A DNA stretch of 64,000 nt, taken from contig CANLEH010000001.1 of assembly GCA_947489665.1 (NCBI GenBank), positions 282,501 to 346,500 of the forward strand. Reading direction: 5' to 3'. The first letter of the stretch is position 1, and each line of letters opens with the position of its first letter. Positions 8,971 to 26,912 of the stretch are shown here, piece after piece. A model generated the notes under the pieces. The model had not been told where the DNA came from, searched no databases, and saw only the letters and a program-made list of their open reading frames with translations. Source of the stretch: an uncultured Roseicyclus sp. Lineage in GTDB: Bacteria; Pseudomonadota; Alphaproteobacteria; Rhodobacterales; Rhodobacteraceae. The position numbers and the translations under genes are program-made.

Positions 8971-9963
8971 ATGCGTTGGGGATTGATCGGTGCAAGCACT
9001 ATTGCTGCCGAGCATATGATCGGCGCGATCCGCGCCTCCGGCGGACATATTGCAACCGTCCTATCATCTAGCCCCGACCGTGCGGCCAGTTATGCCGCCA
9101 CCCACGGGATTGCTGCTGGCGTCACCGACCTGGATGCTGCGATGGAAGGCGTGGAAGCCGTCTACATCTCAACCACCAATGAAAAGCACCTGCCCCAAGC
9201 GATGGCTGCCATTGCGGCGGGCAAGCATGTGCTGTGCGAAAAGCCTTTGGCCATGAGCGTCGCGGATGCGGTCGCAATGGTGCAGGCCGCGGACGCTGCT
9301 GGCGTCACTTTTGGTACTAACCACCATTTGCGAAACGCGGGCTCACATCTTGCCATCCGCGATCTGATCACGTCGGGTCGGATCGGTGATGTCCTTTCAG
9401 TCCGCGTCTTTCATGCCGTTCATTTGCCGCCGCATCTTCAGGGCTGGCGTATCGACAACCCTGATGCCGGCGGCGGTGTGATCCCCGATATCACGGTCCA
9501 CGACGCAGATACCGTCCGCTTTCATCTAGGTGAGGACCCGGTCGACGTGGTAGCCACGAAGACGTCGCGCGGCATGGGGCAGGGGGTCGAAGACAGTGCG
9601 ATGTCGCTCTGGTCGATGCCGTCTGGTGCAATGGTCCAGACTCATGAAAGTTTCACCCACGCCTATGCGGGAACAGGGATCGAGGTGCATGGCACCGAAG
9701 GATCAATCATCGCCCGCAACGTGATGACACAGCAACCCATTGGTGAAGTCACGCTGCGTTTTGATGGTGGTGAGCAAGCCGTCGAGTACTCCGAGCATTC
9801 TCTCTACGAGCGCGCCGTCGATCTGTTTGCCAAAGCATGTGCGGGCGAGGGCCGCCCGGCTGCGGATGGCGTGGATGGCGTCAAATCTCTGGCTGTCGCC
9901 GCTGCCGTATCGCGGGCCGCCGAAACTGGCCAACGCACGCCCGTTGACTACGGTTGGATCTGA
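8971..9963 (+). CDS. Gfo/Idh/MocA family NAD(P)-dependent oxidoreductase
   Basis: A 330-residue dehydrogenase of the glucose-fructose oxidoreductase / inositol dehydrogenase family. The N-terminal Rossmann fold begins GLIGAST. The family EKP motif is at 90-92, and the catalytic pattern D173-x3-H177-x2-D180 is intact. Members oxidise or reduce sugars, polyols or glycosides at a ring carbon, typically C2 or C3. It opens a four-gene operon with a CoA-transferase starting one base after its stop. Two operators upstream indicate control by a LacI-type repressor. The substrate is unknown; the position beside a sugar importer suggests it acts early on an imported sugar or glycoside. Confidence 0.9.
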   Translation: MRWGLIGASTIAAEHMIGAIRASGGHIATVLSSSPDRAASYAATHGIAAGVTDLDAAMEGVEAVYISTTNEKHLPQAMAAIAAGKHVLCEKPLAMSVADAVAMVQAADAAGVTFGTNHHLRNAGSHLAIRDLITSGRIGDVLSVRVFHAVHLPPHLQGWRIDNPDAGGGVIPDITVHDADTVRFHLGEDPVDVVATKTSRGMGQGVEDSAMSLWSMPSGAMVQTHESFTHAYAGTGIEVHGTEGSIIARNVMTQQPIGEVTLRFDGGEQAVEYSEHSLYERAVDLFAKACAGEGRPAADGVDGVKSLAVAAAVSRAAETGQRTPVDYGWI

Positions 9964-9964
9964 C

Positions 9965-11536
9965 ATGTCGAAACTTGTCACAGCCGCCGAGGCCGTGGAA
10001 CGGATCCAGGACAACGCGGTTGTCACCGTCTCAAGCTCCTCGGCGCTTGGCTGCCCTGATGCGGTTCTACAAGCCTTGGGTGAACGGTTTGATGCTGAAG
10101 GCGCGCCGCGCAATCTGACCACGATCCACCCGATTGCGGCGGGTGACATGTATGGCGTGAAGGGCGTGGACCATATCGCCAAGGATGGGCTGCTTGCGCG
10201 GATCATCGGCGGATCTTACCCCTCCGGCCCCTCATCGCTGCCGATGCCGTCCATCTGGCAGATGATCGTTGAAGATCGCGTCGCTGCCTATAACGTGCCA
10301 TCGGGCATCCTTTATGACATGCACCGTGACGTCGCCGCCCGCCGCCCCGGCGTTCTAACGCAGGTGGGGTTGGAGACGTTTGTGGACCCGATCCGCGAAG
10401 GGTGCGCAATGAACGGGGTCGCTGCAAAAGCCCCCATTGTTCACCGCACTGAGTTTGCAGGGGATACGTGGTTGCACTTCCCCAACATTGTGCCGGACGT
10501 CGCCATCATCCGCGCCACCACCGCCGATGAAAATGGCAATCTGACCTACGAACATGAAGGCGCCTATCTGGGCGGTCTCGACCAGGCGATTGCCACACGC
10601 AATCACGGTGGCGTGGTGATCGCGCAGGTCAAGCGTATGACCGCAGCAGGATCCCTCCGGCCCCACGACGTTCATGTCCCCGGGCATCTCGTGGATCTTA
10701 TCGTCCTCGCCCCGGACCAGAAACAGACCACCGAAACACCCTACGACCCCGCCATCTCGGGGGAAGTCATGCGGCCCTGGTCGTCGTTTAGCCATGCGGA
10801 GTACGGCGTTGAGAAAATCATCGCGCGCCGCGCTGCGATGGAACTGCAGGCGGGCATGACCGCAAACCTCGGCTTCGGTATCTCCGCCATGGTGCCACGC
10901 ATTCTGCTGGAAGAAGGCGCCCATGACGCTGTCACCTGGGCCATCGAGCAGGGGGCCGTAGGCGGTATGCCCCTGACTGGCTTTGCCTTCGGCTGTGCCT
11001 CCAACGCGGACGCCTTCGTGCCGTCGCCCAACCAGTTCAGTTACTTTCAGGGCGGCGGGTTCGACGTGTCTTTCCTGTCGTTCATGGAGGTCGACGTGGA
11101 CGGCAACGTCAACGTCTCGAAGCTCGGGAAGAAACCCTACCTGACCGCCGGGTGCGGAGGATTTGTCGACATCACGGCGCACGCAAAGAAAGTCGTCTTC
11201 AGCGGCTATTTCGAAGCCGGTGCGCAGCTTGAGCTTAAGGATGACGGCCTGCGGGTCGCCAAGCCCGGGAAGTTCACCAAGATGGTCGAAGCTGTCGAAC
11301 ACGTCACTTTCGCTGGTCGCCGTGCGCGGGCCCGTAAGGCTGATGTCCTTTACATCACTGAACGTTGCGTGATGCGTCTGGGCGATAAAGGCCTCGTTGC
11401 GCATGAGATCATGCCAGGGATCGACCCCGATCGCGACATCGTCGCTGTGTCCGACGGCCGAGTCACAGTGGCAGAGGATGCCGCGACCATGCCGTTAAAC
11501 CTTCTGCGCAATGCACCGATGGGGCTCAACCTATGA
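9965..11536 (+). CDS. Family I CoA-transferase, fused alpha and beta subunits
   Basis: A 523-residue protein of the propionate/acetoacetate CoA-transferase type. The N-terminal half is the alpha-like domain, with DENG at 189-192. The C-terminal half is the beta-like domain, with the presumed catalytic Glu328 in EQGAVGG. These enzymes move CoA from an acyl-CoA donor to a carboxylate through a glutamyl-CoA thioester. ATG 9965 follows the previous stop by one base; an in-frame extension upstream lies inside the preceding gene and is rejected. The stop overlaps the enoyl-CoA hydratase start (ATGA, 11533). A CoA-transferase in a sugar-catabolic operon suggests CoA activation of a sugar-derived acid. 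Confidence 0.9.
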   Translation: MSKLVTAAEAVERIQDNAVVTVSSSSALGCPDAVLQALGERFDAEGAPRNLTTIHPIAAGDMYGVKGVDHIAKDGLLARIIGGSYPSGPSSLPMPSIWQMIVEDRVAAYNVPSGILYDMHRDVAARRPGVLTQVGLETFVDPIREGCAMNGVAAKAPIVHRTEFAGDTWLHFPNIVPDVAIIRATTADENGNLTYEHEGAYLGGLDQAIATRNHGGVVIAQVKRMTAAGSLRPHDVHVPGHLVDLIVLAPDQKQTTETPYDPAISGEVMRPWSSFSHAEYGVEKIIARRAAMELQAGMTANLGFGISAMVPRILLEEGAHDAVTWAIEQGAVGGMPLTGFAFGCASNADAFVPSPNQFSYFQGGGFDVSFLSFMEVDVDGNVNVSKLGKKPYLTAGCGGFVDITAHAKKVVFSGYFEAGAQLELKDDGLRVAKPGKFTKMVEAVEHVTFAGRRARARKADVLYITERCVMRLGDKGLVAHEIMPGIDPDRDIVAVSDGRVTVAEDAATMPLNLLRNAPMGLNL

Positions 11537-12300
11537 GCGCCGCCCACCTTGATATGGAGGGCAAAATCGCCCGCATCCGCCTTGACAACCCGTCGAAGCT
11601 GAACGCGCTCACGACCGAGATGCTTGAGCAGCTTGAGGCGGCATGCGCCACGCTGGAACGCTCGCCCCAGATAGGGGCCGTGATCCTGTCCGGTGAAGGC
11701 GACCGGGCGTTCTGCGCCGGGGCTGACATCAAGGCCTGGGGGGCGCTCAGCCCGACCGAGTTTGCCCGAAACTGGGTACGTGACGGACACCGCATTTTCG
11801 ACCGCTTTGCGCGGCTTTCGATCCCCACCATCGCCGCAATCCATGCGCCAGCGATGGGCGGCGGTCTGGAGCTGGCCGCCTGCGCGGACATCCGCGTCAT
11901 GGCACCCATGGCCACGCTTTCCCTCCCGGAGGCGCAAGTGGGTATCGTGCCCGGCTGGGGCGGGACGAACCGGTTGCTGCGCCTGTTACCTGAGCCTGTG
12001 GTGAAGGAAATGGCCTTATTCGGCCGCAAGCTGACCGCCGACAAGGCCTGGTCCTTGGGGTTCGTGGCGGAAGTTGCAGAGAACCCGCTTGCCACAGCCG
12101 TGGCTATTGCTGAGCAGGCGGCCCAAGCCAGTCCGCGCGCCCATGAAGTGGCCAAATACCAGATCCACGCCGCCGTCGGCGAAGATCGGGCCGCGCTGAT
12201 TGAGGCATTGGGCGGCGGGATGATTGGCGCCACGGATGATCGCGCCGAAGGGGTGGCCAGCTTCAAAGACAAACGCAAACCTGATTTTCCGGGGACCTGA
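11533..12300 (+). CDS. Enoyl-CoA hydratase/isomerase family protein
   Basis: A 255-residue crotonase-fold protein. The oxyanion-hole segments are AFCAGADIKAW (59-69) and HAPAMGGG (104-111). Glu113 and Glu133 stand 20 residues apart, as do the two catalytic glutamates of true enoyl-CoA hydratases, so hydration/dehydration of an acyl-CoA is chemically plausible. It overlaps the CoA-transferase gene by four bases and is followed three bases later by an aldehyde dehydrogenase gene. In context it probably acts on the CoA ester made by its neighbour, though crotonase-fold proteins also catalyse isomerisation, hydrolysis and retro-aldol reactions. Confidence 0.9.
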   Translation: MSAAHLDMEGKIARIRLDNPSKLNALTTEMLEQLEAACATLERSPQIGAVILSGEGDRAFCAGADIKAWGALSPTEFARNWVRDGHRIFDRFARLSIPTIAAIHAPAMGGGLELAACADIRVMAPMATLSLPEAQVGIVPGWGGTNRLLRLLPEPVVKEMALFGRKLTADKAWSLGFVAEVAENPLATAVAIAEQAAQASPRAHEVAKYQIHAAVGEDRAALIEALGGGMIGATDDRAEGVASFKDKRKPDFPGT

Positions 12301-12303
12301 GAT

Positions 12304-13827
12304 ATGACCGAATTGCGTGTGATCCCCTCTGCCGGTGCGACGCTCCCGGAACCCTTCAAAGCCCGTCACCTGATTGGAGGCATTTGGCAGGACAGCGCCG
12401 ATGGCGCGGTGTCTGAGCGTCACTCCCCCGCCCATGGCGCACTCGTCAGTACAGCGGCCAAGGGCGGCCAGGCCGATGCTGACGCCTCCATCGCAGCCGC
12501 CCGAACCGCCTTTGATCATGGAGACTGGGCGTTCTCAAGCGGCGCGTCCCGCGCAGCGATCTTGTTGAAAGTGGCCGACCTGATTGAGCGTGACCTAGAT
12601 CGCATCGCGTTGATCGAGACTTTGGAGTCCGGCAAGCCGATCAGCCAGGCGAAGGCTGAAATTGCGGGTGCGGCTGACCTTTGGCGCTATGCCGCAAGCC
12701 TCGCCCGGATGATCCACGGCGACAGCCACAACAGCCTTGGCGCGGATATGTTGGGTGTTGTGCTGAAAGAGCCCATTGGCGTCGTCTCCCTCATCACACC
12801 GTGGAACTTCCCGTTCCTTATCATCTCTCAGAAACTGCCCTTTGCACTCGCCGCAGGGTGCACAGCGGTCATCAAACCGTCCGAGTTGACGCCGTCCACC
12901 ACCTGTATCCTGGGCGAATTGCTGATGGAGGCAGGCCTGCCAGCGGGTGCAGCCAACATCGTCCTGGGCTTTGGCGATCCGGTGGGTGAGATCCTCTCCA
13001 CCGATCCGCGCGTTGATATGGTCAGCTTCACAGGCTCTACCGGTGTCGGCAAACGCATCAGTGCGGCGGCGTCTGGCACCCTCAAGAAGGTCTCGCTTGA
13101 GCTTGGCGGCAAAAACCCGCAAGTCATCTTCCCCGACGCCGATCTCGACCAAGCGGCAGACGCGATCACCTTTGGCGTCTACTTCAATGCGGGCGAGTGC
13201 TGCAATTCCGGGTCCCGCATCATTGTGCACGAGGACGTGGCGGAGGCTCTGACCGAAAAGGTTGTGGCACTCAGCCGCAAAGTGCCGTTCGGCGATCCGC
13301 TCGACACCGCCACACAGGTCGGCGCGATCATCAGCCCCGAGCATATGGCGAAGATCGACGGCTATGTGCAGGAGGCTGTCGCTGACGGTGCCAAGGTCGC
13401 CATCGGTGGTGCCGCCCTAAACGTCGACGGCGTTGGCCCACAATTCTACCAGCCTACCGTTGTGACGAACCTGCGCCCAGAGATGCCTATCGCGCGGGAA
13501 GAGGTGTTCGGTCCTGTCTTGTCCGTCCTAACGTTCAAGACCCTCGATGAGGCGCTAAGCCTCTGCAACGATGCAGCTTATGGTCTTTCAGCCGGTGTCT
13601 GGTCCCGCGACATGTCCACCTGTCTGGAGTTCGCGCGACGCGTGCAGGCAGGCACTGTCTGGACCAATACCTGGATGGATGGCTATCCGGAAATGCCGTT
13701 TGGCGGCGTCAAGGAAAGCGGGCAGGGACGTGAGCTCGGGCGCTACGGCCTCGATGAATTCCTGGAAGTCAAAACCGTCCAGATGCGCATCGGCAATACC
13801 CGTCAGCCCTGGGTGTCTTCCGAATGA
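12304..13827 (+). CDS. NAD(P)-dependent aldehyde dehydrogenase
   Basis: A 507-residue ALDH-superfamily enzyme of normal length. It shows the substrate-pocket motif PWNFPF (166-171), cofactor motif FTGSTGVGK (242-250), general base Glu266 in LELGGKNP and nucleophile Cys300 in GECCNSGSR. It oxidises an aldehyde to an acid, probably a pathway intermediate. It is the last gene of the 8971-13827 operon. Its 3' end overlaps by 25 bases the 3' end of the convergent LacI-type regulator. The substrate cannot be assigned; betaine-aldehyde-like and semialdehyde dehydrogenases share this architecture. Confidence 0.92.
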   Translation: MTELRVIPSAGATLPEPFKARHLIGGIWQDSADGAVSERHSPAHGALVSTAAKGGQADADASIAAARTAFDHGDWAFSSGASRAAILLKVADLIERDLDRIALIETLESGKPISQAKAEIAGAADLWRYAASLARMIHGDSHNSLGADMLGVVLKEPIGVVSLITPWNFPFLIISQKLPFALAAGCTAVIKPSELTPSTTCILGELLMEAGLPAGAANIVLGFGDPVGEILSTDPRVDMVSFTGSTGVGKRISAAASGTLKKVSLELGGKNPQVIFPDADLDQAADAITFGVYFNAGECCNSGSRIIVHEDVAEALTEKVVALSRKVPFGDPLDTATQVGAIISPEHMAKIDGYVQEAVADGAKVAIGGAALNVDGVGPQFYQPTVVTNLRPEMPIAREEVFGPVLSVLTFKTLDEALSLCNDAAYGLSAGVWSRDMSTCLEFARRVQAGTVWTNTWMDGYPEMPFGGVKESGQGRELGRYGLDEFLEVKTVQMRIGNTRQPWVSSE

Positions 13828-14858
13828 TGCAAGCGCTCGAAATCCGGCACCAGCATGTGCGTCAGCGTGGAGGGATCATCCCCCTGCATGCGTCGGATCA
13901 GCATTTCGGCCATTTTGCGCCCGGTCTCGCGCAAGTCCTCGAACACGGTGTCGATGCGCGGGCGAATATTGTCAAAGATCGGCGAGGCGCGTTTGGCAAA
14001 TACATCGGCGTCTCGGCCCAGAACAGCGCCACTATCGGCCATCGCGGACAAGGTCACCAGCGCGGTGACCTCCCCCACACAGACATAGCCGTCGGGCGGC
14101 GTGTCGCTCGCGCGGCTAGCGCGCAAGGCTTCCGCAATGCGCGCGGCGGGGCTGTCGAGGGTGACACCATCGACGATTTCATGCTCCACGCCCGCATTCC
14201 GCGCCTCGCTCAAAAAGCCGTAGCGCAGATGCTGGGTAAAGGTGAACCGGTCCTCTGGCAGGATAAGCGACAGCCGCGTGCGCCCCTTGGCGACCAGCCG
14301 TTGGACGGCCTGACGGGCGAATGCTTCATTGTCGAAATCGACGTACGGATGGGGTGCGGTGAATTCGGTCCGGCCATGGCTGACAAAGGGAAAATCGTTC
14401 TCCATCAGCAGCCGGACGCGAGGGTCAAATGCCTCAGTCCGCGTGAACAGGATACCGTCCGCCAAATGGTTGCGCAGGATGTTGCGGACCGGTGCGAGGC
14501 GGTCGTCGCCCACATCATCAGGCACGACATTGACGGAATATCCGGTGCCCTGCAGCGCCTCGGTGATCCCCGAAAGAAATTCGTGCGTGAAGCCCAGAAA
14601 TTCATGTTCGGTATTCAGCAGCAGTGTGACAACTTGCGTCCGGCCAGTCCGCAAGCGCCGCGCGGCTCGGTCCGGTACATATCCTGCGACAGCCGCCGCC
14701 TCGGCCACCAGCGCCCGTGTCTTCGCAGCGATTCGCGGATCGTCCGCCAGCGCACGGCTGACCGTCGCGACAGAGAAACCTGTCGTCTCCGCAAGGCTGC
14801 GCAGGGTGGGTTTTTCACCGCTTGCAGCGGTCGGCAGATCGGTCGTTTCGCGGCTCAT
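13803..14858 (-). CDS. LacI family transcriptional regulator of the second sugar importer (AglR-like)
   Basis: A 351-residue LacI-type repressor. The helix-turn-helix lies at about 18-40 (TLRSLAETTGFSVATVSRAL), the hinge helix near 58-70 (DRAARRLRTGRT), followed by a periplasmic-binding-protein-like effector domain. It is divergent from the binding-protein gene at 15096, with a 237-base shared control region holding candidate CG-centred palindromes, so it most likely represses that importer and itself. It converges with the aldehyde dehydrogenase gene and overlaps it by 25 bases. The effector is probably a sugar. Confidence 0.9.
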   Translation of the reverse strand: MSRETTDLPTAASGEKPTLRSLAETTGFSVATVSRALADDPRIAAKTRALVAEAAAVAGYVPDRAARRLRTGRTQVVTLLLNTEHEFLGFTHEFLSGITEALQGTGYSVNVVPDDVGDDRLAPVRNILRNHLADGILFTRTEAFDPRVRLLMENDFPFVSHGRTEFTAPHPYVDFDNEAFARQAVQRLVAKGRTRLSLILPEDRFTFTQHLRYGFLSEARNAGVEHEIVDGVTLDSPAARIAEALRASRASDTPPDGYVCVGEVTALVTLSAMADSGAVLGRDADVFAKRASPIFDNIRPRIDTVFEDLRETGRKMAEMLIRRMQGDDPSTLTHMLVPDFERLHHSEDTQG

Positions 14859-15095
14859 GGCGAGAGATCGCCTTTCAGTTGCATCGCGCTCTATATTGCG
14901 CGGGATTTCAAACGTTTCAATAGCCGTCTTGCAACGCGTGATCTTTCCGCACTGCAGAAAAACTCAAGCATTTATGCTGTTGTGCAGCGATATTTGCAGA
15001 TGAAAGTCTCAATTTCTGGTTGACTTCAACCGGATTTATAACGTTTTAATTCTGTCAGCCCCGGTAAGGGGATTGGTCAATAGGGAGGAAACGAC
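14859..15095. promoter_or_regulatory. Divergent control region between the LacI regulator and second importer
   Basis: The region contains two imperfect CG-centred palindromes resembling LacI-family sites: TTTCAAACGTTTCAA (14906-14920, perfect core AAACGTTT at 14910-14917) and TTATAACGTTTTAA (15036-15049, core AACGTT at 15040-15045). Both differ from the GGAACGTTCC sites elsewhere in the window, suggesting a separate repressor. A strong ribosome site (AGGGAGG, about 15082-15088) precedes the binding-protein start. Confidence 0.5.
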
Positions 15096-16343: not shown

Positions 16344-16354
16344 TCACTGACTTC

Positions 16355-16382
16355 GGACCGGCCCTGACATCGGGGCCGGTCC
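16355..16382 (+). terminator. Intercistronic stem-loop after the binding-protein gene
   Basis: A perfect 10-bp stem, GGACCGGCCC (16355-16364) with GGGCCGGTCC (16373-16382), closes an 8-base loop. No U-run follows and the permease gene starts 39 bases later. It is therefore probably a 3'-end-stabilising or partial-termination structure, the usual device for keeping binding-protein mRNA in excess. Confidence 0.75.
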
Positions 16383-16420
16383 ACCCCAAGACAACCACCC
16401 GATTTCGAAGGAGAGGCCCC

Positions 16421-17329
16421 ATGGCCGCCACCGATCCCATGCTGGACAGCGGTGCGGATTTCCGCACGCGTTTGCAGACCTGGCTGCCCAAGATCGTGCT
16501 CGCCCCGTCCTTCGCGGTGATGGTCATCTTCGTCTACGGCTTCATCGCCTTCACCATCTATCTCAGCTTCACAGACAGCCGCATGTTGCCGAGCTACGAT
16601 CTGGTGGGTTGGCAGAACTACGAGCGCCTGTTCCGCGTCCGCCAGTGGGACACGGCGATCATCAACCTCGGAATTTTCGCAGGCCTCTATATCGTGATTT
16701 CCACGATCATCGGACTGCTGCTGGCGATCTTCCTTGATCAGAAAATCCGCGGCGAAGGCTTTCTGCGCCCGATCTTCCTTTACCCCATGGCACTCAGCTT
16801 CATCGTGACCGGCACCGCGTGGAAATGGATCCTCGATCCGGCCATCGGGCTCGAGACAACCATGCACCGCTGGGGGTGGGAAAGCTTCCAGTTCGACTGG
16901 ATCAAAGACAGCGACATGGCGATCTACACCATCGTCATCGCCGCCGTCTGGCAAAGCTCCGGCTTCGTCATGGCCATGTTCCTCGCGGGCCTGCGCGGGA
17001 TCGACAACGAAATCCTGAAGGCCGCGCAGATGGACGGCGCGTCGAATTTCCAGATGTACCGTCGGATCATCCTGCCACAGCTGCGTCCGGCCTTTCTGAG
17101 CGCCTTCGTGATCCTGTCGCACCTCGCGATCAAATCCTATGACCTCGTCGTTGCGATGACGGACGGCGGGCCGGGCACCTCCACATGGCTGCCTGCGCTC
17201 TTCATGTACGAATACACCTTCACGCGGAACCAGATGGGGATCGGTGCCTCTTCGGCCGTGATCATGTTGATGACCATCGCCGCGATCATGGTCCCCTACC
17301 TCTACGCTGAACTGAAGGAGCAGAAGTGA
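16421..17329 (+). CDS. CUT1 sugar ABC transporter permease, MalF-type
   Basis: A 302-residue inner-membrane permease with six predicted helices, starting at about 28-50 (VLAPSFAVMVIFVYGFIAF). It has the EAA-type loop near 200-222 (LKAAQMDGASNFQMYRRIIL), here with Leu-Lys in place of the usual Glu-Ala at its start. GGPGTSTWLPALFMYEYTF near the C-terminus is characteristic of this subunit type. It overlaps the next permease by one base (TGATG at 17327-17331), implying coupled translation. Confidence 0.93.
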   Translation: MAATDPMLDSGADFRTRLQTWLPKIVLAPSFAVMVIFVYGFIAFTIYLSFTDSRMLPSYDLVGWQNYERLFRVRQWDTAIINLGIFAGLYIVISTIIGLLLAIFLDQKIRGEGFLRPIFLYPMALSFIVTGTAWKWILDPAIGLETTMHRWGWESFQFDWIKDSDMAIYTIVIAAVWQSSGFVMAMFLAGLRGIDNEILKAAQMDGASNFQMYRRIILPQLRPAFLSAFVILSHLAIKSYDLVVAMTDGGPGTSTWLPALFMYEYTFTRNQMGIGASSAVIMLMTIAAIMVPYLYAELKEQK

Positions 17330-18210: not shown

Positions 18211-18215
18211 GTCCG

Positions 18216-19377: not shown

Positions 19378-19412
19378 CAATTGTAGTGCACCCGTCTTTT
19401 TTGGACTTGGAA

Positions 19413-19426: not shown

Positions 19427-19444
19427 ATATATGCAGAGAGGGCA

Positions 19445-20872
19445 ATGAGCGACGCAGATATCATCATCGTCGGCTCCGGCATGGGGGGCGCGACACTTGC
19501 GGCGGGGCTGAAGGGCTCCGGCCTCAAAGTGCTGATCGTTGAGCGCGGCCAGTTGCTTCGGGACAGCCCAGAGGCACGCGACGCGGACGCGATTTTCCGG
19601 GACGGCCATTACCGCCCGGATGAGACCTGGCTCACCCCGGATGGGACCCGCTTCAACCCCGGCAACTACGCCTATGTCGGCGGCAACTCGAAATTCTACG
19701 GTGCTGTGATGTTGCGGTATCGCGAAGCGGATTTCGCGCAGCACTGGCCCATCGACCATGCGACACTCGCACCGTTCTACGCGCGCGCCGAGGCGCTTTT
19801 CAAAGTGCGCGGCGATACCAGCGCCGACCCGACTGAGCCGCCGCACGACGCGCCCTATTCCTTTCCGCCCGTCCCCCACGAATCCGATATTGTCGATCTC
19901 GCCATTCGCCTGAAGCGTATCGGGCTGACCCCATCGCCACTTCCGCTTGCCGTGGACCTCGATCGCTGGCTCGCCCGAGGGGCCACGCCGTGGGATGCGC
20001 ATCCCGACACCAATGGCGGCAAGCTCGATGCGGAAAGCGCCGCTTTGGCCGATGCGATGGAAGACCGCAACATCACCCTGCGCACCGGCGTAACCGTGCG
20101 CAGGATCGAAACCGACGGAGACCGCGTCACAGGTTTGATCACATCTGGCGGGCGCCTGACCGCCCCGCGTATCGTGATTGCCGCAGGCGCGGTGCATACT
20201 GCCGCACTGCTGCTGCGCTCGGACAATGAGGGCCATCCCAACGGGCTTGCAAACAGCTCCGATCAGGTTGGCCGCAACTTCATGAACCACAACGCCAGCG
20301 CCGTTCTCGCGTTGAGCCATAGGCGCAATCGCTCGGTCTACCAGAAGACCCTTCAGATCAACGATTGGTATGCCGAAGGGCTGGGCAATGTGCAGCTTTT
20401 GGGCCGTGTCTCGACCCCGATCCTTGCGGCGCAGACGGGTCTGCCCAAACCAATGGCGGCTTTGATCGCGAACCGCGCGATTGATTTTTACGCCATGTCC
20501 GAGGACCTGCCGAACCCCGATAGCCGGGTGACGGTGCAGGGAGATGACATCGTGCTCGATTGGAAACGCTCAAACTGGGAGGCGCATCTTGCGCTGGTCT
20601 CGCGGCTCAAGACATCGCTGAAGAAGGCGGGTTTCCCGGTTGTCCTGTCGAAGGCCTTTGACCGCCGCACGCCGTCTCATCAATGCGGCACGGCGCGGTT
20701 GGGCGACGATCCGGCGGTTTCGGTCTGTGACCCGTTCGGCAAGGCCCATGACCTTGATAACCTGTACATCTGTGACGCGTCCCTTTTGCCGACCTCGGCC
20801 GCGGTGAACCCGTCGCTGACCATCGCCGCACTTGCGTTGCGGCAAGCTGACTATCTGAAGGACACCACATGA
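19445..20872 (+). CDS. GMC-family FAD-dependent oxidoreductase
   Basis: A 475-residue flavoprotein. The FAD-binding dinucleotide motif GSGMGG is at 10-15, and VGGNSKFYGA near residues 78-87 is the FAD-contact region. The C-terminal catalytic pair is His412 (SHQCGTARLG) and Asn455 (AAVNPSLTI), the His/Asn arrangement of sugar-oxidising GMC enzymes such as pyranose and glycoside 3-oxidases. No signal peptide is seen, so it acts in the cytoplasm. It opens the operon behind the 19413 operator and overlaps the next gene by ATGA. Sugar or glycoside oxidation is the best guess; the substrate and electron acceptor are unknown. Confidence 0.85.
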   Translation: MSDADIIIVGSGMGGATLAAGLKGSGLKVLIVERGQLLRDSPEARDADAIFRDGHYRPDETWLTPDGTRFNPGNYAYVGGNSKFYGAVMLRYREADFAQHWPIDHATLAPFYARAEALFKVRGDTSADPTEPPHDAPYSFPPVPHESDIVDLAIRLKRIGLTPSPLPLAVDLDRWLARGATPWDAHPDTNGGKLDAESAALADAMEDRNITLRTGVTVRRIETDGDRVTGLITSGGRLTAPRIVIAAGAVHTAALLLRSDNEGHPNGLANSSDQVGRNFMNHNASAVLALSHRRNRSVYQKTLQINDWYAEGLGNVQLLGRVSTPILAAQTGLPKPMAALIANRAIDFYAMSEDLPNPDSRVTVQGDDIVLDWKRSNWEAHLALVSRLKTSLKKAGFPVVLSKAFDRRTPSHQCGTARLGDDPAVSVCDPFGKAHDLDNLYICDASLLPTSAAVNPSLTIAALALRQADYLKDTT

Positions 20873-21579
20873 AGGCGCTTATCACAGGCGGGCAGCAGGG
20901 CATCGGCCTTGGGATTGCGCGGGCGCTCAATGACGCGGGCTGGCAGATTGCCATCGCGTCCGAGCAGCCCAATGCAGACCTGCCGTTTGAGGCCAGCTAC
21001 TATCAGCATGATGTTCGCGACGTTGATGCAATTCCCGCGCTTCTCGATGGGATCGGCCCGATCAACACTTTTGTCTCCAACGCCGGTGTTGGCGCGATGC
21101 GGCGCGGTGATCTGTTGGACATGACGCCGGAGAGTTTCGACCGCTGCCACGCCATCAACACGCGCGGTGCGTTCTTTCTTGCACAAGAAGTTGCGCGGCG
21201 GATGCTGTCCCAACCCGCCGACCCGTTTCGGTCCATCACCTTCATCACTTCCGTCAGCGCGTCCATGACCAACCCGGACCGTGCCGAATACAATGCGTCG
21301 AAGGCTGCCACGGCCTCGCTTGCGCAAGCCTTCGCGCTGCGTTTGGCGACCGAGGGGATTGGCGTTTACGACATCCGTCCGGGCATCATTGAAACGCCAA
21401 TGACCGCCCCTGTGGCCGACCGCTACAATCCCCGCATCCCCGAGTTGATCCCGCAAGCCCGTTGGGGCCAACCCGCCGATATCGGCGCAGTCATGGTCCC
21501 GCTCGCGCGTGGTGACTTCGCCTATTCGACCGGTGCGGTGATCCCCGTCGATGGCGGCATGACAATCCAGAGCTTCTGA
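20869..21579 (+). CDS. Short-chain dehydrogenase/reductase (SDR)
   Basis: A 236-residue classical SDR. The cofactor motif TGGQQGIG is at 6-13, NAG at 71-73, and the catalytic set is Ser128 or Ser130, Tyr141 and Lys145 (YNASK). The C-terminus VIPVDGGMTI is typical. It probably interconverts a hydroxyl and keto group in the same pathway as its neighbours, since it overlaps the first GMC gene by four bases and lies six bases before the second. Whether it is oxidising or reducing cannot be told. Confidence 0.9.
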   Translation: MKALITGGQQGIGLGIARALNDAGWQIAIASEQPNADLPFEASYYQHDVRDVDAIPALLDGIGPINTFVSNAGVGAMRRGDLLDMTPESFDRCHAINTRGAFFLAQEVARRMLSQPADPFRSITFITSVSASMTNPDRAEYNASKAATASLAQAFALRLATEGIGVYDIRPGIIETPMTAPVADRYNPRIPELIPQARWGQPADIGAVMVPLARGDFAYSTGAVIPVDGGMTIQSF

Positions 21580-21585
21580 GGACCC

Positions 21586-23172
21586 ATGACTGAATCCTAC
21601 GATTTCCTGATCATCGGTGGCGGCTCGGCCGGGTCGGTTATTGCCAGTCGGTTGAGTGAGAACCCGGATGTCTCCGTCTGCCTGTTGGAGGCTGGAGGAT
21701 CGGACCGTCACCCGTTCTTCCACCTGCCTGCCGGGTTCGCGAAGATGACCAAGGGCATCGGGTCGTGGGGTTGGTCGACGACGCCGCAAAAGCACATGCA
21801 AGACAAGGTGTTCACCTACACGCAGGCCAAGGTGATTGGTGGTGGTTCTGCCATCAATGCGCAGATCTACACGCGGGGCCATCCGCATGATTACGATGAA
21901 TGGCGCCAGATGGGGTGTGAGGGGTGGAGCTATGAGGATGTCCTTCCCTATTTCCGCAAGTCGGAGGGCAATGACACCTATTCGGGCCGCTATCACGGGC
22001 AGGACGGGCCGCTTGGCGTGTCGAAACCCGCCGCGCCCTTGCCGATTTGCGAGGCCTATTTCGAGGCGGCGAAGGCAGTTGGCATTCCGTTCAATGAGGA
22101 TGTGACGGGTGAGGTGCAGGAGGGCGCGGCGTACTACCAGCTGACGCAGAAGAATGCCCGCCGGTCGTCCGCGGCGATGGCGTTTCTGCATCCTAACAAG
22201 CGGCGTGCGAACCTGACGGTGAAGCTCGGCGCGCAGGTGCGGCGGATGCTGTTTGACAAGGGCAGGGCGGTGGGCGTCGAGATGCTCGACCGGTCGCTGA
22301 TCCATGCGGGGACAGAGGTGATCCTGTGTTCGGGCGCCATTGGATCGCCGCGTCTGCTGCAGCTGAGCGGAGTGGGGCCTGCCGATGAATTGCGGGCGCT
22401 TGGGATTGATGTGCTGTTGGACCAGTCGAAGGTGGGCGCGAACCTGCAGGATCATCTTGACCTTTATTGCATTTGCGAGGTGTCGGGTCCGCACACCTAT
22501 GATCGGTTTGCCAAGCCGCATCTGAGTGCCTTGGCGGGTTTGCAGTATCTGTTCACGAAGACCGGACCTGTTGCCTCAAGCCTCTTCGAGACGGGCGGGT
22601 TCTGGTATGCCGACCCGGATGCGCGATCGCCTGATTTGCAGTTTCATCTGGGTCTTGGGACAGGGATTGAGGCGGGGGTTGCCGCGATGCCGGAGGGTGG
22701 GGTGACGCTGAATTCCTGCTACCTGCGCCCACGGTCGCGGGGTTCGGTCCGGTTGCAATCGGCGGATCCGACCAAGGCGCCGCTGATCGACCCGAATTAC
22801 TGTGCCGACCCGCAGGATCGCGCCATGTCGATCCGTGGCCTCAAGCTGACGCAGGAGATCTTGAGCCAGGCCCCGCTGAAACCCTTCATCAAGGCCGAAC
22901 GTCTGCCCGGTCCGGATATCCAAACCGACGACGACTATTTCAACTTCATCTGCCAGCACTCGAAGACATCGCACCATTGTGCGGGCACCTGTGCGATGGG
23001 GCCGGGGGACAGTGCTGTGGTGACGCCACGGCTGCGGTTCAACGGGATCGAGAAGCTGCGCGTCGCGGATGCGTCGATCATGCCCAATGTCGTCTCCTCC
23101 AACACCAACGCGCCCACGATCATGATTGGCGAGAAGGCCGCCGATATGATCCGCGAAGATCACGGGATTTAG
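21586..23172 (+). CDS. GMC-family oxidoreductase, choline-dehydrogenase-like
   Basis: A 528-residue FAD enzyme of the choline/alcohol dehydrogenase branch. The dinucleotide motif GGGSAG is at 11-16, and the segment VIGGGSAINAQIYTRGHPHD carries the flavin-contact GGGSAIN. Catalytic His463/His464 are in SHHCAGT, and Asn506 or Asn508 in SSNTNAPT. It is only distantly like the GMC protein at 19445, so the operon has two different flavin dehydrogenases, probably for two oxidation steps. It is not accompanied by betaine-aldehyde genes, so a choline role is unlikely. Confidence 0.9.
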   Translation: MTESYDFLIIGGGSAGSVIASRLSENPDVSVCLLEAGGSDRHPFFHLPAGFAKMTKGIGSWGWSTTPQKHMQDKVFTYTQAKVIGGGSAINAQIYTRGHPHDYDEWRQMGCEGWSYEDVLPYFRKSEGNDTYSGRYHGQDGPLGVSKPAAPLPICEAYFEAAKAVGIPFNEDVTGEVQEGAAYYQLTQKNARRSSAAMAFLHPNKRRANLTVKLGAQVRRMLFDKGRAVGVEMLDRSLIHAGTEVILCSGAIGSPRLLQLSGVGPADELRALGIDVLLDQSKVGANLQDHLDLYCICEVSGPHTYDRFAKPHLSALAGLQYLFTKTGPVASSLFETGGFWYADPDARSPDLQFHLGLGTGIEAGVAAMPEGGVTLNSCYLRPRSRGSVRLQSADPTKAPLIDPNYCADPQDRAMSIRGLKLTQEILSQAPLKPFIKAERLPGPDIQTDDDYFNFICQHSKTSHHCAGTCAMGPGDSAVVTPRLRFNGIEKLRVADASIMPNVVSSNTNAPTIMIGEKAADMIREDHGI

Positions 23173-23175
23173 GCT

Positions 23176-24339
23176 ATGAAACTGCCAACTTACGCAGGAA
23201 CGCTGGAAGACTACGCCCTCATGGGGGACCCGCTGGTTCCGCGCGCGCCAATGGTCCCGCTGACCCGCACAGCCTTTGCCGCCGCGCATGTTGTCAGCGA
23301 CCCGCTGAACGAGCGTGATCCGTGGCAAGGCCGCCCTGCCGTCGATTGGGACGCCACATTGCGGTTCCGCGAAAAACTGTGGGATCAGGGTCTTGGCCTG
23401 GCCGAGGCGATGGACACCGCACAGCGTGGGATGGGTGTGGATTGGGATACGGCGAAAGAGCTGATCCAGCGCACGATGCGCGCGGCCAAGGCCCATCCGA
23501 TGAAACCCCGTGTCGCCTGCGGGGCTGGGACGGATCATGTGCCGCTGAAAGACCTGACCGATCCCGTCCGCATCAAGGCCGCCTACACGGAACAGATGGA
23601 TGCGATCGAGGCTGAAGACGGCCAATTGATCCTTATGGCCAGCCGCGCCCTTCCGGCCATTGGCGCAGGCCCTGAGACCTACGCTCGTGTCTATGACGAT
23701 TTGATCGCGCAGGCGACGCAGCCGGTAATCCTGCATTGGCTTGGCGATATGTTTGACCCGGCGCTGAAGGGCTATTGGGGTGGAACCTCCATCGACGAGG
23801 CAAACGCCATCGTCCTGGACCTCATCACTCGCAACGCTGCGAAGATCGACGGCATTAAAATTTCCCTGCTCGACCAAAGCCACGAAGAAGCTTTCCGCGC
23901 GCAACTGCCCGAAGGTGTGCGCCTTTATACCGGCGATGATTTCAACTACGCGCCCTTGATCGAGGGGGACGGCACGCACCATTCACACGCGCTTCTGGGC
24001 ATCTTCGCGGCCATCGCCCCGGCAGCGAGCCAAGCCCTTGAAGCGCTCGCTCAAAACGATCGCGCGACCTACCACGCCCTTCTCGCGCCCACCGTCCCGC
24101 TTAGCCGCGAAATCTTCAAAGCCCCAACTCAATTCTACAAGGCAGGCATCGCGTTCCTGTCATGGCTGAACGGCTATCAGACCCACTTCATTATGCCCGC
24201 AGGCTTCCAATCCTCGCGCGAGATCACCCATTATGCCGAGGTCTTCCGCCTGGCGGATCAGGCCCGCCTGTTGACCGACCCGGACCTTGCCACGCACCGG
24301 ATGCAACAGCTGCTTTCCATACACGGTTTCGGCGGATAA
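23176..24339 (+). CDS. DUF993 family protein, dihydrodipicolinate-synthase-like TIM barrel
   Basis: A 387-residue protein matching the DUF993 family, related to class I Schiff-base aldolases of the DHDPS/NAL type. Segments consistent with a TIM barrel include QLILMASRALPAIG, PVILHWLGDMFDPALKGYWG, and KIDGIKISLLD, whose Lys is a candidate Schiff-base residue. No member with a firmly established reaction comes to mind, so aldol cleavage is only an inference from fold. The gene starts three bases after the GMC stop and nine bases before the LacI regulator gene. Followed in the operon by glycerate kinase, it could release a three-carbon acid. Confidence 0.75.
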   Translation: MKLPTYAGTLEDYALMGDPLVPRAPMVPLTRTAFAAAHVVSDPLNERDPWQGRPAVDWDATLRFREKLWDQGLGLAEAMDTAQRGMGVDWDTAKELIQRTMRAAKAHPMKPRVACGAGTDHVPLKDLTDPVRIKAAYTEQMDAIEAEDGQLILMASRALPAIGAGPETYARVYDDLIAQATQPVILHWLGDMFDPALKGYWGGTSIDEANAIVLDLITRNAAKIDGIKISLLDQSHEEAFRAQLPEGVRLYTGDDFNYAPLIEGDGTHHSHALLGIFAAIAPAASQALEALAQNDRATYHALLAPTVPLSREIFKAPTQFYKAGIAFLSWLNGYQTHFIMPAGFQSSREITHYAEVFRLADQARLLTDPDLATHRMQQLLSIHGFGG

Positions 24340-24348
24340 CAACGCGCC

Positions 24349-25356
24349 ATGAGCCGCCGCCCCACCATTCTTGACGTTGCTGCCAAAGCGGGCGTGTCCA
24401 AATCGACGGTGTCGCTTGTTCTGCAAAACTCCAAGCAGGTGAAAGACGAAACCCGCGAGGCGGTACGGGGCGCGATGGCGGAGATCGGTTATGTCTACAA
24501 CCGCGCTGCGGCGCAGATGCGCTCTCAATCGGCTGGGCTTGTGGGGCTTGTTATCAACGATCTGCGCAACCCGTTCTTCACGGAATTCGCTACTGTTCTG
24601 CAGATGACGCTGGCCGCGAAAGGCTACGCGACCGTGATCGCGAATTCTGATGAGGACGCGGACCTGCAAGCCAAACTCGTAGGGTCCATGATCGAACACG
24701 GCGTCTCGGCCCTTGTCGTTTCTCCCGCTTATGGCGATGGCGGCGCGGCGTTTGACCAGATTGAGCGTGCGGGCCTTCCGGCCATTCAGGTCCTGCGCAA
24801 GACCGACGCGCGCACGGGCCTGTTCCCGTTCGCCAGCTTCGACTACGCCGCAGGGTCTGCGCGCGCCACGCGCCATCTGATGAACCAGGGCGCGCAAAAC
24901 ATCGCCTTTGTTGGCGGCGTTGAGGGGCGCGAGATCACTGAAGAGCGCAAATCCGGCTATCTGGCTGAGATGAAGCGCGTGGGCGCCAATCCGATCACGT
25001 TTCACGGGCGCAGCACGCGCGCATTCGGGGTTGAGACGGCCCCTGCGTTGATCGAGGCCGGCGCGGATGCTGCCGTCTGCTTCAACGATCTTGTGGCCCT
25101 TGGCCTGCACGCCGGTTTCGCCCGGGCGGGCAAGGTTCTGGGGACGGATTTCCGCATCGTCGGGTTTGACGACATCGAGGATTGCGCCTTGGTCTGGCCG
25201 CAACTGTCTTCTGTGGCCTGCGATATTGACGGCTTTGCCCGCGCCACGGCGGATCGCCTGCTGGCCTGGATGCAGAATAGCGAAACACCACCGCCTGATC
25301 ATCGTGCACCGGTCGATCTGGTGGCCCGCACCTCTAGCACGGGACGAATTACATGA
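24349..25356 (+). CDS. LacI family regulator, probable repressor of the GGAACGTTCC regulon
   Basis: A 335-residue LacI-type repressor. The HTH is at about 6-25 (TILDVAAKAGVSKSTVSLVL). The hinge helix is NRAAAQMRSQ, with Met where most family members carry Leu, followed by a sugar-binding-type effector domain. It is embedded in the 19445-26912 operon and overlaps the glycerate kinase start by ATGA. That operon and the one at 8971 share the palindrome GGAACGTTCC, and the other LacI protein in the window sits next to different sites. This protein is therefore the best candidate to bind GGAACGTTCC and to autoregulate. Confidence 0.88.
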   Translation: MSRRPTILDVAAKAGVSKSTVSLVLQNSKQVKDETREAVRGAMAEIGYVYNRAAAQMRSQSAGLVGLVINDLRNPFFTEFATVLQMTLAAKGYATVIANSDEDADLQAKLVGSMIEHGVSALVVSPAYGDGGAAFDQIERAGLPAIQVLRKTDARTGLFPFASFDYAAGSARATRHLMNQGAQNIAFVGGVEGREITEERKSGYLAEMKRVGANPITFHGRSTRAFGVETAPALIEAGADAAVCFNDLVALGLHAGFARAGKVLGTDFRIVGFDDIEDCALVWPQLSSVACDIDGFARATADRLLAWMQNSETPPPDHRAPVDLVARTSSTGRIT

Positions 25357-26591
25357 ACGCTGACGCTTTCCTCCGCTCTCTCTTTGCCCGCGCGGTCGAA
25401 GTGGCTGACCCGATGCAATCGCTTGCTGCCGCGTTGCCGCCAAAACCCGAAGGCCGCGTCCTTGTGATTGGGGCGGGTAAGGCCAGTGCCCGTATGGCCG
25501 AAGCGGTGGAGGCCGAGTGGGGGCCTTGTGAAGGCTTCGTCATCACCCGTTACGGCTATGCGCGCCCCTGTCAGGGCATCGAAATCGTCGAGGCTTCGCA
25601 TCCCGTGCCCGACGCGGCGGGAGAGCAAGCCACCAAGCGCCTTCTCGAAATTCTTGCGACAGCGGGCGAAGATGACTTTGTGCTCGCGTTGATTTCGGGG
25701 GGTGGGTCCGCGTTGCTGACCGCGCCAGCCGGTGACATCACGCTTACGGAGAAGCAGGCGCTGACACAGGCGCTTTTGGCCTCAGGCGCGCCGATCAGTG
25801 AGATCAATGGCGTCCGCAAGGAGCTGTCCGCTGTGAAAGGTGGGCGACTTGCGGTGGCGGCCTATCCTGCGCGGATGCTGGCCCTGATGATCTCGGACGT
25901 GCCGGGCGACAGGCCTGGCGACATCGCCAGTGGCCCGACCGTGGGCAATACAGGCTCTGCCGCGCAAGCGCTGGATACGCTGGATGAATGGGGGGTGATC
26001 GCGCCGCCCGCGATCCGGGCGTATCTTGAGGCAGGCGGCGATCCGGTTCTGCCTGACGATCCGCGCCTCGCCCGGGTTGAGAATGTGATCTATGCCGCCC
26101 CGTCGCAATCGCTTGCCGCTGCCGCCGATCTGGCGGAGGAGCAGGGCTATCATGTCGAGATCCTTGGGGATTCGATTGAAGGTGAAGCGCGCAATGTCGC
26201 GGTCACCCATGCCGAAATCGCCAATGCCGCCAAACCGGGCACGCTGGTCCTGTCGGGGGGCGAGTTAACCGTCACGCGCCGCGGTGACGGTGTCGGCGGC
26301 CCAAATGCGGAATACGCCTTGGCCTTGGCAATCGAGTTGCAGGGCGCTGCCAATATCCACGCCATCGCCTGCGATACGGATGGGGTCGATGGGGCTGCCG
26401 AGGTTGCGGGGGCGGTCATCGGGCCAGATACTTTGGCCAAGGCCCGTGCTGCCGGGATCGACCCGGATGCGGCTTTGGCCAACAACGACGCCCATTCCTT
26501 TTTTGCCGCCATTGACGATCAGGTCGTGCCTGGCCCGACCCTGACCAACGTGAACGATTTCCGCGCCATCCTTGTCGGCCCGGCTTCCTGA
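25353..26591 (+). CDS. Glycerate 2-kinase (DUF4147/MOFRL family)
   Basis: A 412-residue kinase of the GckA/TtuD type, normal for the family. The N-terminal DUF4147 domain includes VLVIGAGKASARMAEAVE and the nucleotide-loop-like ISGGGSALLTAP, followed by LMISDVPGD. The C-terminal MOFRL domain includes LSGGELTVTRRGDGVGGPNA and NNDAHSFF. It phosphorylates D-glycerate to 2-phosphoglycerate and so feeds lower glycolysis. Its place in this operon implies that the pathway produces glycerate or hydroxypyruvate/tartronate semialdehyde. It overlaps the LacI gene by four bases and is followed by the Dabb gene after 12 bases. Confidence 0.9.
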   Translation: MNADAFLRSLFARAVEVADPMQSLAAALPPKPEGRVLVIGAGKASARMAEAVEAEWGPCEGFVITRYGYARPCQGIEIVEASHPVPDAAGEQATKRLLEILATAGEDDFVLALISGGGSALLTAPAGDITLTEKQALTQALLASGAPISEINGVRKELSAVKGGRLAVAAYPARMLALMISDVPGDRPGDIASGPTVGNTGSAAQALDTLDEWGVIAPPAIRAYLEAGGDPVLPDDPRLARVENVIYAAPSQSLAAAADLAEEQGYHVEILGDSIEGEARNVAVTHAEIANAAKPGTLVLSGGELTVTRRGDGVGGPNAEYALALAIELQGAANIHAIACDTDGVDGAAEVAGAVIGPDTLAKARAAGIDPDAALANNDAHSFFAAIDDQVVPGPTLTNVNDFRAILVGPAS

Positions 26592-26603
26592 AGGACTTTT
26601 GAC

Positions 26604-26912
26604 ATGCTGATCCACACTGTTTTGCTTGAACCGGCGTCCGACACGGCGCAGGCCGCCTTTGATGAGGCGATGGCGATCCTTGAACAAGTGGCGTCGAACC
26701 TGCCGGGAATGATTGCCTTTCACCACGGGCCCAACCGCGATTTCGAGAAGAAGAGCCAAGCCTATCCCTATGGCTTCACCTGCATGTTCGAAGATCAGGC
26801 GGCGCTTGAGGCCTATGCCGCTGACCCTGAGCATCAACGCGCGGGCGGGATGTTGGTGGCAAATTGCCGGAACGGGGCGGATGGGATTTTCGTCTCGGAC
26901 CTGGAGGTCTGA
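26604..26912 (+). CDS. Dabb (stress-response A/B barrel) domain protein
   Basis: A 102-residue single-domain dimeric alpha/beta-barrel protein. It begins MLIHTVLLEP and contains NLPGMIAFHHGPNRDFE and YGFTCMFEDQAALEAYAADP, the normal Dabb pattern with a conserved His near the second strand. Dabb proteins are small dimers found in many sugar-catabolic operons. Some have enzymatic (cyclase or lyase-like) roles but most are uncharacterised. It is the last gene in the operon, 12 bases after glycerate kinase, so it probably acts on a pathway intermediate or protects an enzyme. Confidence 0.85.
   Translation: MLIHTVLLEPASDTAQAAFDEAMAILEQVASNLPGMIAFHHGPNRDFEKKSQAYPYGFTCMFEDQAALEAYAADPEHQRAGGMLVANCRNGADGIFVSDLEV

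Follow-up and report, generated by a model that had tools for sequence, protein, structure and literature searches.

Which carbon source would call for two GMC-family flavoproteins, a coenzyme A (CoA) transferase, an enoyl-CoA hydratase and a glycerate 2-kinase, all encoded around the genes of a sugar importer? The question is raised by a 64,000-nucleotide stretch of the genome of an uncultured Roseicyclus sp. (Rhodobacteraceae; GenBank assembly GCA_947489665.1, contig CANLEH010000001.1, positions 282,501 to 346,500), referred to here in its entirety as the window, in which two operons between positions 8971 and 26912 encode these enzymes together with a Gfo/Idh oxidoreductase and a member of the DUF993 family. 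We consider it reasonably likely that the locus serves the catabolism of 1,5-anhydrohexitols (1,5-anhydroglucitol, 1,5-anhydrofructose and 1,5-anhydromannitol) as a single system under LacI control, with a CoA-dependent route as part of it. Because sugars of this kind lack an anomeric carbon, their ring cannot be opened by the ordinary sugar isomerases.

The evidence for the substrate comes from the Gfo/Idh protein, whose best matches in the PDB are 4koa (E 1.8e-113) and 2glx (E 1.6e-112), the 1,5-anhydro-D-fructose reductases (AFR) of Sinorhizobium meliloti and S. morelense, respectively; the next chain follows at E 1.9e-24. When a Sinorhizobium AFR is used as the query, the window protein is the best match in its own genome, at 58% identity, and of the 10 weaker Gfo/Idh matches the next best reaches 37%, over part of its length. 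Residues Ser10, Ala13, Ser33, Arg38, Lys94 and His180, which we take to be the NADPH-binding and active-site residues of AFR, have their presumed equivalents in Ser9, Ala12, Ser32, Arg37, Lys91 and His177, and these are invariant in all five aligned sequences. In Sinorhizobium sp. 8-89 an AFR copy that is 94% identical to that of S. meliloti (312/333, counted by hand from the alignment) shares its locus with a CoA-transferase, hydratase, aldehyde dehydrogenase (ALDH), SBP2-type importer, GMC1, SDR, GMC2, Dabb, glycerate kinase and DUF993, and both in the window and in rhizobia the AFR gene immediately precedes the CoA-transferase gene. By these comparisons the window protein is an AFR orthologue and not simply a member of the Gfo/Idh family, and it would reduce 1,5-anhydrofructose to 1,5-anhydromannitol in an NADPH-dependent reaction. 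Because of this orthology, the substrate of the locus is probably a 1,5-anhydrohexitol. The initial annotation had thought of glycosides, glucosylglycerol and branched sugars; these were rejected once the AFR match (E 1.8e-113) was found, since the orthology points to 1,5-anhydrohexitols instead.

The genes of the locus are as follows.

8971-9963, plus strand: Gfo/Idh oxidoreductase, AFR orthologue (PDB matches 4koa and 2glx)
9956-11536, plus strand: fused (alpha+beta) family I CoA-transferase, FadX/YdiF type (Pfam CoA_trans; PDB 2ahu)
11533-12300, plus strand: enoyl-CoA hydratase or 3-hydroxyacyl-CoA dehydratase (both glutamates; PDB 5zai)
12304-13827, plus strand: ALDH (Pfam Aldedh, E 5.7e-165)
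13803-14858, minus strand: LacI-family regulator 1, divergent from the importer
15096-16343, plus strand: SBP2, solute-binding protein of the glucose-binding type
16421-19328, plus strand: two permeases and MalK-type ATPase of the SBP2 importer
19445-20872, plus strand: GMC1, short GMC flavoprotein, proposed 1,5-anhydroglucitol C2 oxidase or dehydrogenase (PDB matches)
20869-21579, plus strand: SDR of the PRK12745 family (NCBIfam NF009386)
21586-23172, plus strand: GMC2, choline-dehydrogenase-like, proposed to oxidise the primary alcohol at C6
23176-24339, plus strand: DUF993, TIM barrel of the dihydrodipicolinate synthase (DHDPS) type, proposed C-C cleavage enzyme (Pfam E 5.2e-173)
24349-25356, plus strand: LacI-family regulator 2, which probably controls the GGAACGTTCC regulon (from the operator position in rhizobial loci)
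25353-26591, plus strand: glycerate 2-kinase, MOFRL type (Pfam DUF4147 and MOFRL)
26604-26912, plus strand: Dabb (A/B barrel) protein, proposed for a ring-opening or thioester step (Pfam Dabb)

Operon 1 (8971-13827) thus comprises the genes for Gfo/Idh, CoA-transferase, enoyl-CoA hydratase and ALDH, and operon 2 (19445-26912) those for GMC1, SDR, GMC2, DUF993, LacI, glycerate 2-kinase and Dabb, with neighbours inside each operon overlapping or at most 12 bases apart. The minus-strand LacI gene (13803-14858) stands between operon 1 and the SBP2 importer (15096-19328). Every gene that the initial annotation had named is present as an open frame where it was placed, as judged from the window's open reading frames (ORFs) and from Pfam and NCBIfam; to these are to be added the two LacI regulators (13803-14858 and 24349-25356), which also belong to the locus. 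A long plus-strand ORF at 13824-15023, which has no Pfam or NCBIfam family match and overlaps the LacI gene, was taken as spurious.

Both operons are preceded by the same LacI-type operator, the palindrome GGAACGTTCC.

8917-8926: operator GGAACGTTCC, copy 1, upstream of the Gfo/Idh operon
8942-8951: operator GGAACGTTCC, copy 2, upstream of the Gfo/Idh operon
19415-19424: operator GGAACGTTCC, upstream of the GMC1 operon

These three exact sites compare with 0.10 expected in the window, and none of 100 shuffled sequences reached three; a looser fourth site at 14907, before the SBP2 importer, has three mismatches and by itself is not significant (19 of 100 shuffles gave as many loose matches). 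Across 151 loci (2.77 Mb) the palindrome occurs 75 times, against about 3 sites expected from base composition, and 73 of the 75 lie no more than 400 bases upstream of a locus gene, whereas four other palindromes occurred 1 to 5 times and the pattern itself was found 5 times in reversed loci. Exact sites are present in 21/72 A1 loci (a count in which many fetched ranges stop short of the site), 11/14 A2 loci and 18/23 rhizobial loci, with none in 22 type B, 13 type D and 7 other loci; a relaxed form of the operator occurs in 33/72 A1 and 5/22 type B loci. Eighteen of the 19 rhizobial sites fall between the gene for LacI regulator 2 and DUF993, and 8 of 26 A2 sites precede the Gfo/Idh gene and that of a flavin adenine dinucleotide (FAD) protein described below. 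LacI regulator 2 is therefore, judging from operator position, the probable regulator of this regulon.

The distribution of the genes was followed in 248 Rhodobacteraceae genomes, one per genus, with Fisher tests that take no account of relatedness. DUF993 has a match in 55 of these and a CoA-transferase at E 1e-100 or better is found in 77, of which the subtype of the window (subtype A, at least 74% identity, the next lower value being 63-64%) accounts for 32. An AFR-type Gfo/Idh (E no higher than 1e-70) occurs in 20 genomes, and since all 20 also carry CoA-transferase A, the association of the locus genes is not due to chance; GMC1, for its part, is present in 30 of the 32 CoA-transferase-A genomes. 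When 24 window proteins and 10 proteins from related loci were compared by tblastn with 120 loci (the fetched loci as a whole contain duplicates, some contigs having been fetched twice, e.g., L086 and L148), the same gene order appeared in many Rhodobacterales and in rhizobia. The set that recurs in Rhodobacterales and Rhizobiales consists of Gfo/Idh, CoA-transferase, enoyl-CoA hydratase, ALDH, the glucose-type importer and GMC1, and further includes SDR, GMC2, DUF993, glycerate 2-kinase and Dabb; outside it are 8 of the 24 window queries, namely the four genes of a first importer upstream of operon 1 and the four genes after Dabb. The two operons thus do occur together elsewhere, contrary to the refuting condition that the initial annotation had set, and this co-occurrence and the shared operator bear out the earlier view that they belong together: almost certainly, as far as genome comparison can tell, they form one conserved and co-regulated locus.

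How might such a locus degrade a 1,5-anhydrohexitol? In the route that we propose, GMC1 would oxidise 1,5-anhydroglucitol at C2 to 1,5-anhydrofructose and AFR would reduce this to 1,5-anhydromannitol, so that the two enzymes as a pair would epimerise C2, after which GMC2 and ALDH would oxidise C6 to the acid, 2,6-anhydro-D-mannonate. The chemistry beyond C6 oxidation is what we infer from the remaining enzymes. The CoA-transferase would form a thioester, acidifying the ring C-H beside the carboxyl group; the hydratase, acting as a dehydratase, would remove the beta-hydroxyl to leave an enol ether; and the enol ether would open, possibly with the help of Dabb, to 2-keto-3-deoxy-D-gluconate (KDG). 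In the version of the window, SDR and DUF993 would turn KDG into pyruvate and D-glycerate, either directly or by way of D-glyceraldehyde and ALDH, and the glycerate kinase would make 2-phosphoglycerate from D-glycerate, while in sister loci the place of the DUF993 tail would be taken by a flavoprotein together with an enzyme resembling KDG kinase. The stereochemistry, worked by hand in Fischer projections and not computed, is consistent with this route, in that the manno ring read from its C6 end would give exactly D-KDG, while from the gluco compound the C5 epimer of KDG would result; this would account both for the manno rather than gluco configuration of the AFR product and for the pairing of AFR with a C2 oxidase as an epimerising couple. 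The general scheme of the initial annotation (oxidation, activation with CoA, dehydration, cleavage to a three-carbon acid and phosphorylation of glycerate) fits these data. We regard the CoA-dependent dehydration to KDG as evenly balanced between true and false. The larger claim is that a sugar ring lacking an anomeric carbon enters central metabolism as KDG after oxidation to an acid, CoA activation, and dehydration and ring opening by a fatty-acid-type hydratase, that this is the missing aerobic pathway for 1,5-anhydroglucitol, and that DUF993 is a new family of C-C cleaving enzymes; its chances we would put a little below even.

The individual enzymes agree with these assignments to varying degrees. 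The CoA-transferase has the CoA_trans domain with its active-site Glu331 in WAIEQGAVGG, matches YdiF (PDB 2ahu) at E 1.5e-95 and scores 318 bits with the NCBIfam FadX model, below its cut-off of 750. Both catalytic glutamates of the hydratase, which the initial annotation had already reported, are found by eye in GGGLEL and LPEAQVGIVPG, and its best PDB match is a dehydratase, the 3-hydroxypropionyl-CoA dehydratase 5zai (E 1.2e-46), which we count in favour of the dehydration step. GMC1 has its best PDB matches among FAD-dependent glucose and fructose dehydrogenases (E 2.4e-26), with pyranose oxidases from E 4.5e-10, and is adjacent in all six rhizobial genomes tested. The SDR scores 283.8 bits with NCBIfam NF009386, above the cut-off of 250, and Dabb is encoded in A1, A2, B and rhizobial loci, but some individual loci lack it. 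SBP2 belongs to the glucose-binding group of solute-binding proteins, which supports the prediction that it and its importer take up a glucose-like ring.

The tail of the pathway can be approached through the genes that replace one another. Among the 32 CoA-transferase-A genomes, 18 have DUF993 of the window type (DUF993-A, at least 65% identity; a partial gene in G118) and 13 have a FAD protein, with both in one (G077) and neither in two (G152 and G195; Fisher p 5e-6); the FAD protein occurs in 14 of the 248 genomes, 13 of which carry CoA-transferase A. In 81 GMC1 loci DUF993 is found in 58, the FAD protein in 10 and the two together in none, and SDR accompanies 57 of the 58 DUF993 loci, none of the 10 FAD-protein loci and 3 of the 13 others; L098, a locus of G077 that lies outside this set, has SDR together with the FAD protein. 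The FAD protein, which replaces DUF993 and SDR, has about 700 residues and is of the fumarate reductase/aspartate oxidase type (L206:4952-7021 and L213:6751-8847). Some FAD-protein loci also encode a PfkB kinase whose best NCBIfam model is 2-dehydro-3-deoxygluconokinase (KdgK, NF052444), at 230-263 bits in the four kinases scanned and with the next model at 104-113; L213 has no kinase at this place, the CoA-transferase gene coming next after the FAD gene. Because DUF993 changes places with a flavoprotein that is linked to a KDG-kinase-like gene, the simplest reading of these gene neighbourhoods is that both versions pass through KDG, which DUF993, SDR and glycerate kinase would process in one and a KDG kinase in the other.

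DUF993 itself was found to have the fold of a DHDPS-type TIM barrel. Lys228, which would be the Schiff-base lysine of the DHDPS/NAL class I lyase superfamily, is invariant in all 143 rows of its alignment (119 of them distinct) and lies in the strand 224-230, the sixth of the barrel by a hand count made without residue-level superposition. Classical pyruvate aldolases have a GxxGE carboxylate motif and a tyrosine in strand 5. For DUF993 as a KDG aldolase, then, the fold and the lysine fit and the classical aldolase motifs do not. Searches of the open-licence literature found no paper on DUF993 (PF06187, IPR009334, COG5660), and the PDB structure of a member, 4dnh, is titled 'hypothetical protein'.

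Several observations weigh against the proposed system and its route. GxxGE occurs anywhere in just 1 of the 143 DUF993 rows, strand 5 reads LHWLG and similar with no tyrosine motif, and a comparison of the DUF993 profile with the DapA of the same genome gave no significant match, so that the relation to the DHDPS superfamily rests on the fold. The genome with both tail modules (G077) goes against their exclusion of one another; the KdgK scores fall below the model's cut-off of 400 in all four kinases scanned, and no more than 5 of 12 FAD-protein loci showed a KdgK-like kinase, although in several of the others the fetched range ends at the FAD gene. The roles given to SDR and Dabb are guesses. 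No AFR-type Gfo/Idh was found at E 1e-70 in 12 of the 32 CoA-transferase-A genomes, in one of which (G118) the Gfo/Idh lies in two pieces. At class level the CoA-transferase at E 1e-170 is present in 7 of 337 genomes, five of them without AFR, and AFR-type genes occur in three, namely the window genome, one with the locus (G415) and one (G322, locus L217) with an orphan AFR-like Gfo/Idh (57%) that has no other locus gene within the fetched 20 kb. There is also a relative of the locus, type B, that shares CoA-transferase, hydratase, GMC2, SDR, DUF993 and in some loci the importer, but has an acyl-CoA dehydrogenase and two aldo-keto reductases instead, and no exact operator. AFR, moreover, also reduces 2-keto-aldoses, so that the substrate could be another 2-keto sugar.

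Some of these points are taken up by other explanations of the locus. The substrate might be a 2-keto sugar or an osone, for instance glucosone, or else a C-glycoside, with AFR acting at the 2-keto group; AFR reportedly reduces osones, according to a paper of 2006, and GMC1 resembles glucose/fructose dehydrogenases and pyranose oxidases, yet osones would yield ordinary aldoses for which the CoA step is unneeded, and the locus genes of the window include no deglycosidase or glycoside hydrolase; we hold this explanation to be improbable. The glycoside 3-oxidation pathways, in which Gfo/Idh and GMC families occur, would have the two enzymes act at C3 of glycosides; the matches to the glycoside 3-dehydrogenase models BT_2158 and BT_2159 that could be cited for this (36 and 50 bits) are far below the cut-offs of 750 and 650 and much weaker than the evidence for AFR orthology, the locus genes include neither a lyase nor a hydrolase as a partner, and we give this reading very little credence. 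Alternatively, AFR alone might serve the anhydro sugar, on its way to mannose by means of an oxygenase encoded elsewhere, and the CoA genes another compound under a regulator held in common. In the published route of S. morelense, as given in a 2025 review (PMC12441222), 1,5-anhydromannitol is converted into mannose through a P450-like enzyme not identified as yet, and this route would need no CoA genes, which favours such a division, as do the 12 of 32 genomes with CoA-transferase A and no full AFR match and the orphan AFR of G322. Against it stand the position of the AFR gene directly before that of the CoA-transferase in the window and in rhizobia, the presence of CoA-transferase A in all 20 AFR genomes of the Rhodobacteraceae, and the lack of a P450 among the genes of the window locus, to which that search was confined; this division of labour, too, we hold to have a small chance.

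Finally, the locus might serve 1,5-anhydrohexitols by a different tail, in which a 2,4-diketo acid, formed by SDR from either KDG or the enoyl-CoA in an oxidation, would undergo hydrolytic cleavage by DUF993 to pyruvate and D-glycerate, much as in the diketo route of L-rhamnose. The near-constant pairing of SDR with DUF993 and its absence from the 10 flavoprotein loci of the GMC1 set suit this tail, and so does the glycerate kinase that accompanies DUF993 even in two Marinobacterium loci without a CoA-transferase, although of 11 loci checked for glycerate kinase just 2 had it, and the DHDPS fold with its invariant lysine is more usual for aldol than for hydrolytic cleavage; we consider the diketo tail unlikely, if worth keeping in view. 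The preferred reading remains the 1,5-anhydrohexitol system with a KDG tail.

Other features of the window and of related loci may be noted here. The window has two MalFGK-type importers, one upstream of operon 1 (3916-8872) and one between the operons (15096-19328), and the initial annotation, which had named two sugar importers flanked by the operons, was right as to their presence; the first, though, lies outside the conserved set and was ruled out as a member, its binding protein and permeases having been found in none of the 49 other fetched Gfo/Idh loci (some are duplicates, and in 26 the fetched range reaches 5 kb or more upstream of Gfo/Idh). Its binding protein has weak PDB matches (best E 1.3e-7), one of its permeases is unusually long (479 aa), and it ends 98 bases before the Gfo/Idh gene; a contig of G195 with a 51% ATPase-like match upstream of Gfo/Idh has no first-importer binding protein or permease there. 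Downstream, the genes for a ribokinase, an FAA hydrolase and an acyl-CoA synthetase (27942-31176) were likewise rejected as members, since among the 120 loci the kinase and synthetase are neighbours of the locus in none but the closest relatives, while the FAA hydrolase has just a 32% match there (in L091), besides a 56% relative in the type B locus L220; the FAA-hydrolase gene (28925-29743) resembles 2,4-didehydro-3-deoxy-L-rhamnonate hydrolase (365.7 bits, cut-off 500). A 306-residue protein without a Pfam match (26976-27896) also adjoins the locus in a few close relatives. Positions 1-3000 of the window have a lower G+C content than the rest (52% in the first 2 kb), possibly the edge of an island, and a tRNA-Met lies near this start, at 2982-3058.

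Type B loci (most of L062-L081, L099, L220 and L222) also carry a xylose-isomerase-like protein and Dabb, with electron transfer flavoprotein genes adjoining in L062, and one might speculate that their substrate is a 4-deoxy anhydro sugar such as an ascopyrone. Another group (L151, L156, L157, L166, L171, L173, L174, L178 and L180) combines DUF993 with Gfo/Idh and a xylose-isomerase-like protein, with no CoA-transferase in range; some of these have genes that by eye resemble tripartite carboxylate transporters, and two, from Marinobacterium, have a glycerate kinase of another family nearby.

If the proposed system is correct, the locus supplies about ten candidate enzymes for the aerobic breakdown of 1,5-anhydroglucitol and DUF993 acquires a first role; it would also account for the bacterial recycling of anhydro sugars that alpha-1,4-glucan lyases set free from starch and glycogen. 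A PF01055 search found no GH31 alpha-glucan lyase or glucosidase in the window's own genome, so, judged by that family, the anhydro sugar would have to come from outside. The carriers are marine and soil bacteria that are most likely able to live on 1,5-anhydro sugars. 1,5-Anhydroglucitol ranks among the principal polyols of the human body, and in the form of its 6-phosphate it lies behind the neutropenia seen in glycogen storage disease Ib and in G6PC3 deficiency. According to the 2025 review (PMC12441222), no oxidative pathway for 1,5-anhydroglucitol has been described, and for use in a probiotic an enzyme able to metabolise this compound aerobically would be required.

One of the nearest known systems is the 1,5-anhydrofructose catabolism of S. 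morelense, the source of the other AFR and a bacterium whose isolation was made with 1,5-anhydrofructose as the only source of carbon (PMC12441222). The window has an orthologue of its AFR, and in Sinorhizobium sp. 8-89 an AFR lies within the locus itself, whereas the S. morelense route oxygenates C1 to give mannose, and the section of the review on it does not mention a CoA-transferase, hydratase, DUF993, GMC or glycerate kinase (PMC12441222). The anaerobic pathway of gut bacteria presumably has the same substrate, 1,5-anhydroglucitol, which it phosphorylates by a phosphotransferase system (PTS) and opens without oxygen through the glycyl radical enzymes YbiW/PflD (PMC12441222). The window locus would rely instead on ATP-binding cassette import, flavoprotein oxidation and CoA, and has no PTS or glycyl radical enzyme among its genes.

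In the non-phosphorylative Entner-Doudoroff pathway, KDG is metabolised by a DHDPS-fold protein, an aldehyde dehydrogenase and a glycerate 2-kinase. The window has counterparts of these in DUF993, ALDH and its own glycerate 2-kinase, and KDG is the proposed intermediate, but here it would come from a CoA-activated anhydro acid and not from gluconate dehydratase, and DUF993 is without the motifs of the classical KDG aldolases. In the L-rhamnose/L-fucose diketo-hydrolase pathway an SDR oxidises the 2-keto-3-deoxy acid before it is cleaved by enzymes of the FAA-hydrolase family, which offers a possible reading of the SDR of the window, where DUF993 stands in place of the FAA-hydrolase. In the demethylation of dimethylsulfoniopropionate the crotonase DmdD offers a possible analogy, in that it works on a CoA thioester and brings about the opening of a carbon-heteroatom bond, that of a thioether; the reaction proposed for the window would differ in starting with a dehydration and in having a sugar ring as its substrate. 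The CoA route, if it is real, is not known to have a counterpart among the sugar pathways, nor was one found in searches of the open-licence literature. Use of anhydrofructose by way of AFR is already known, and it is the CoA route that would be new.

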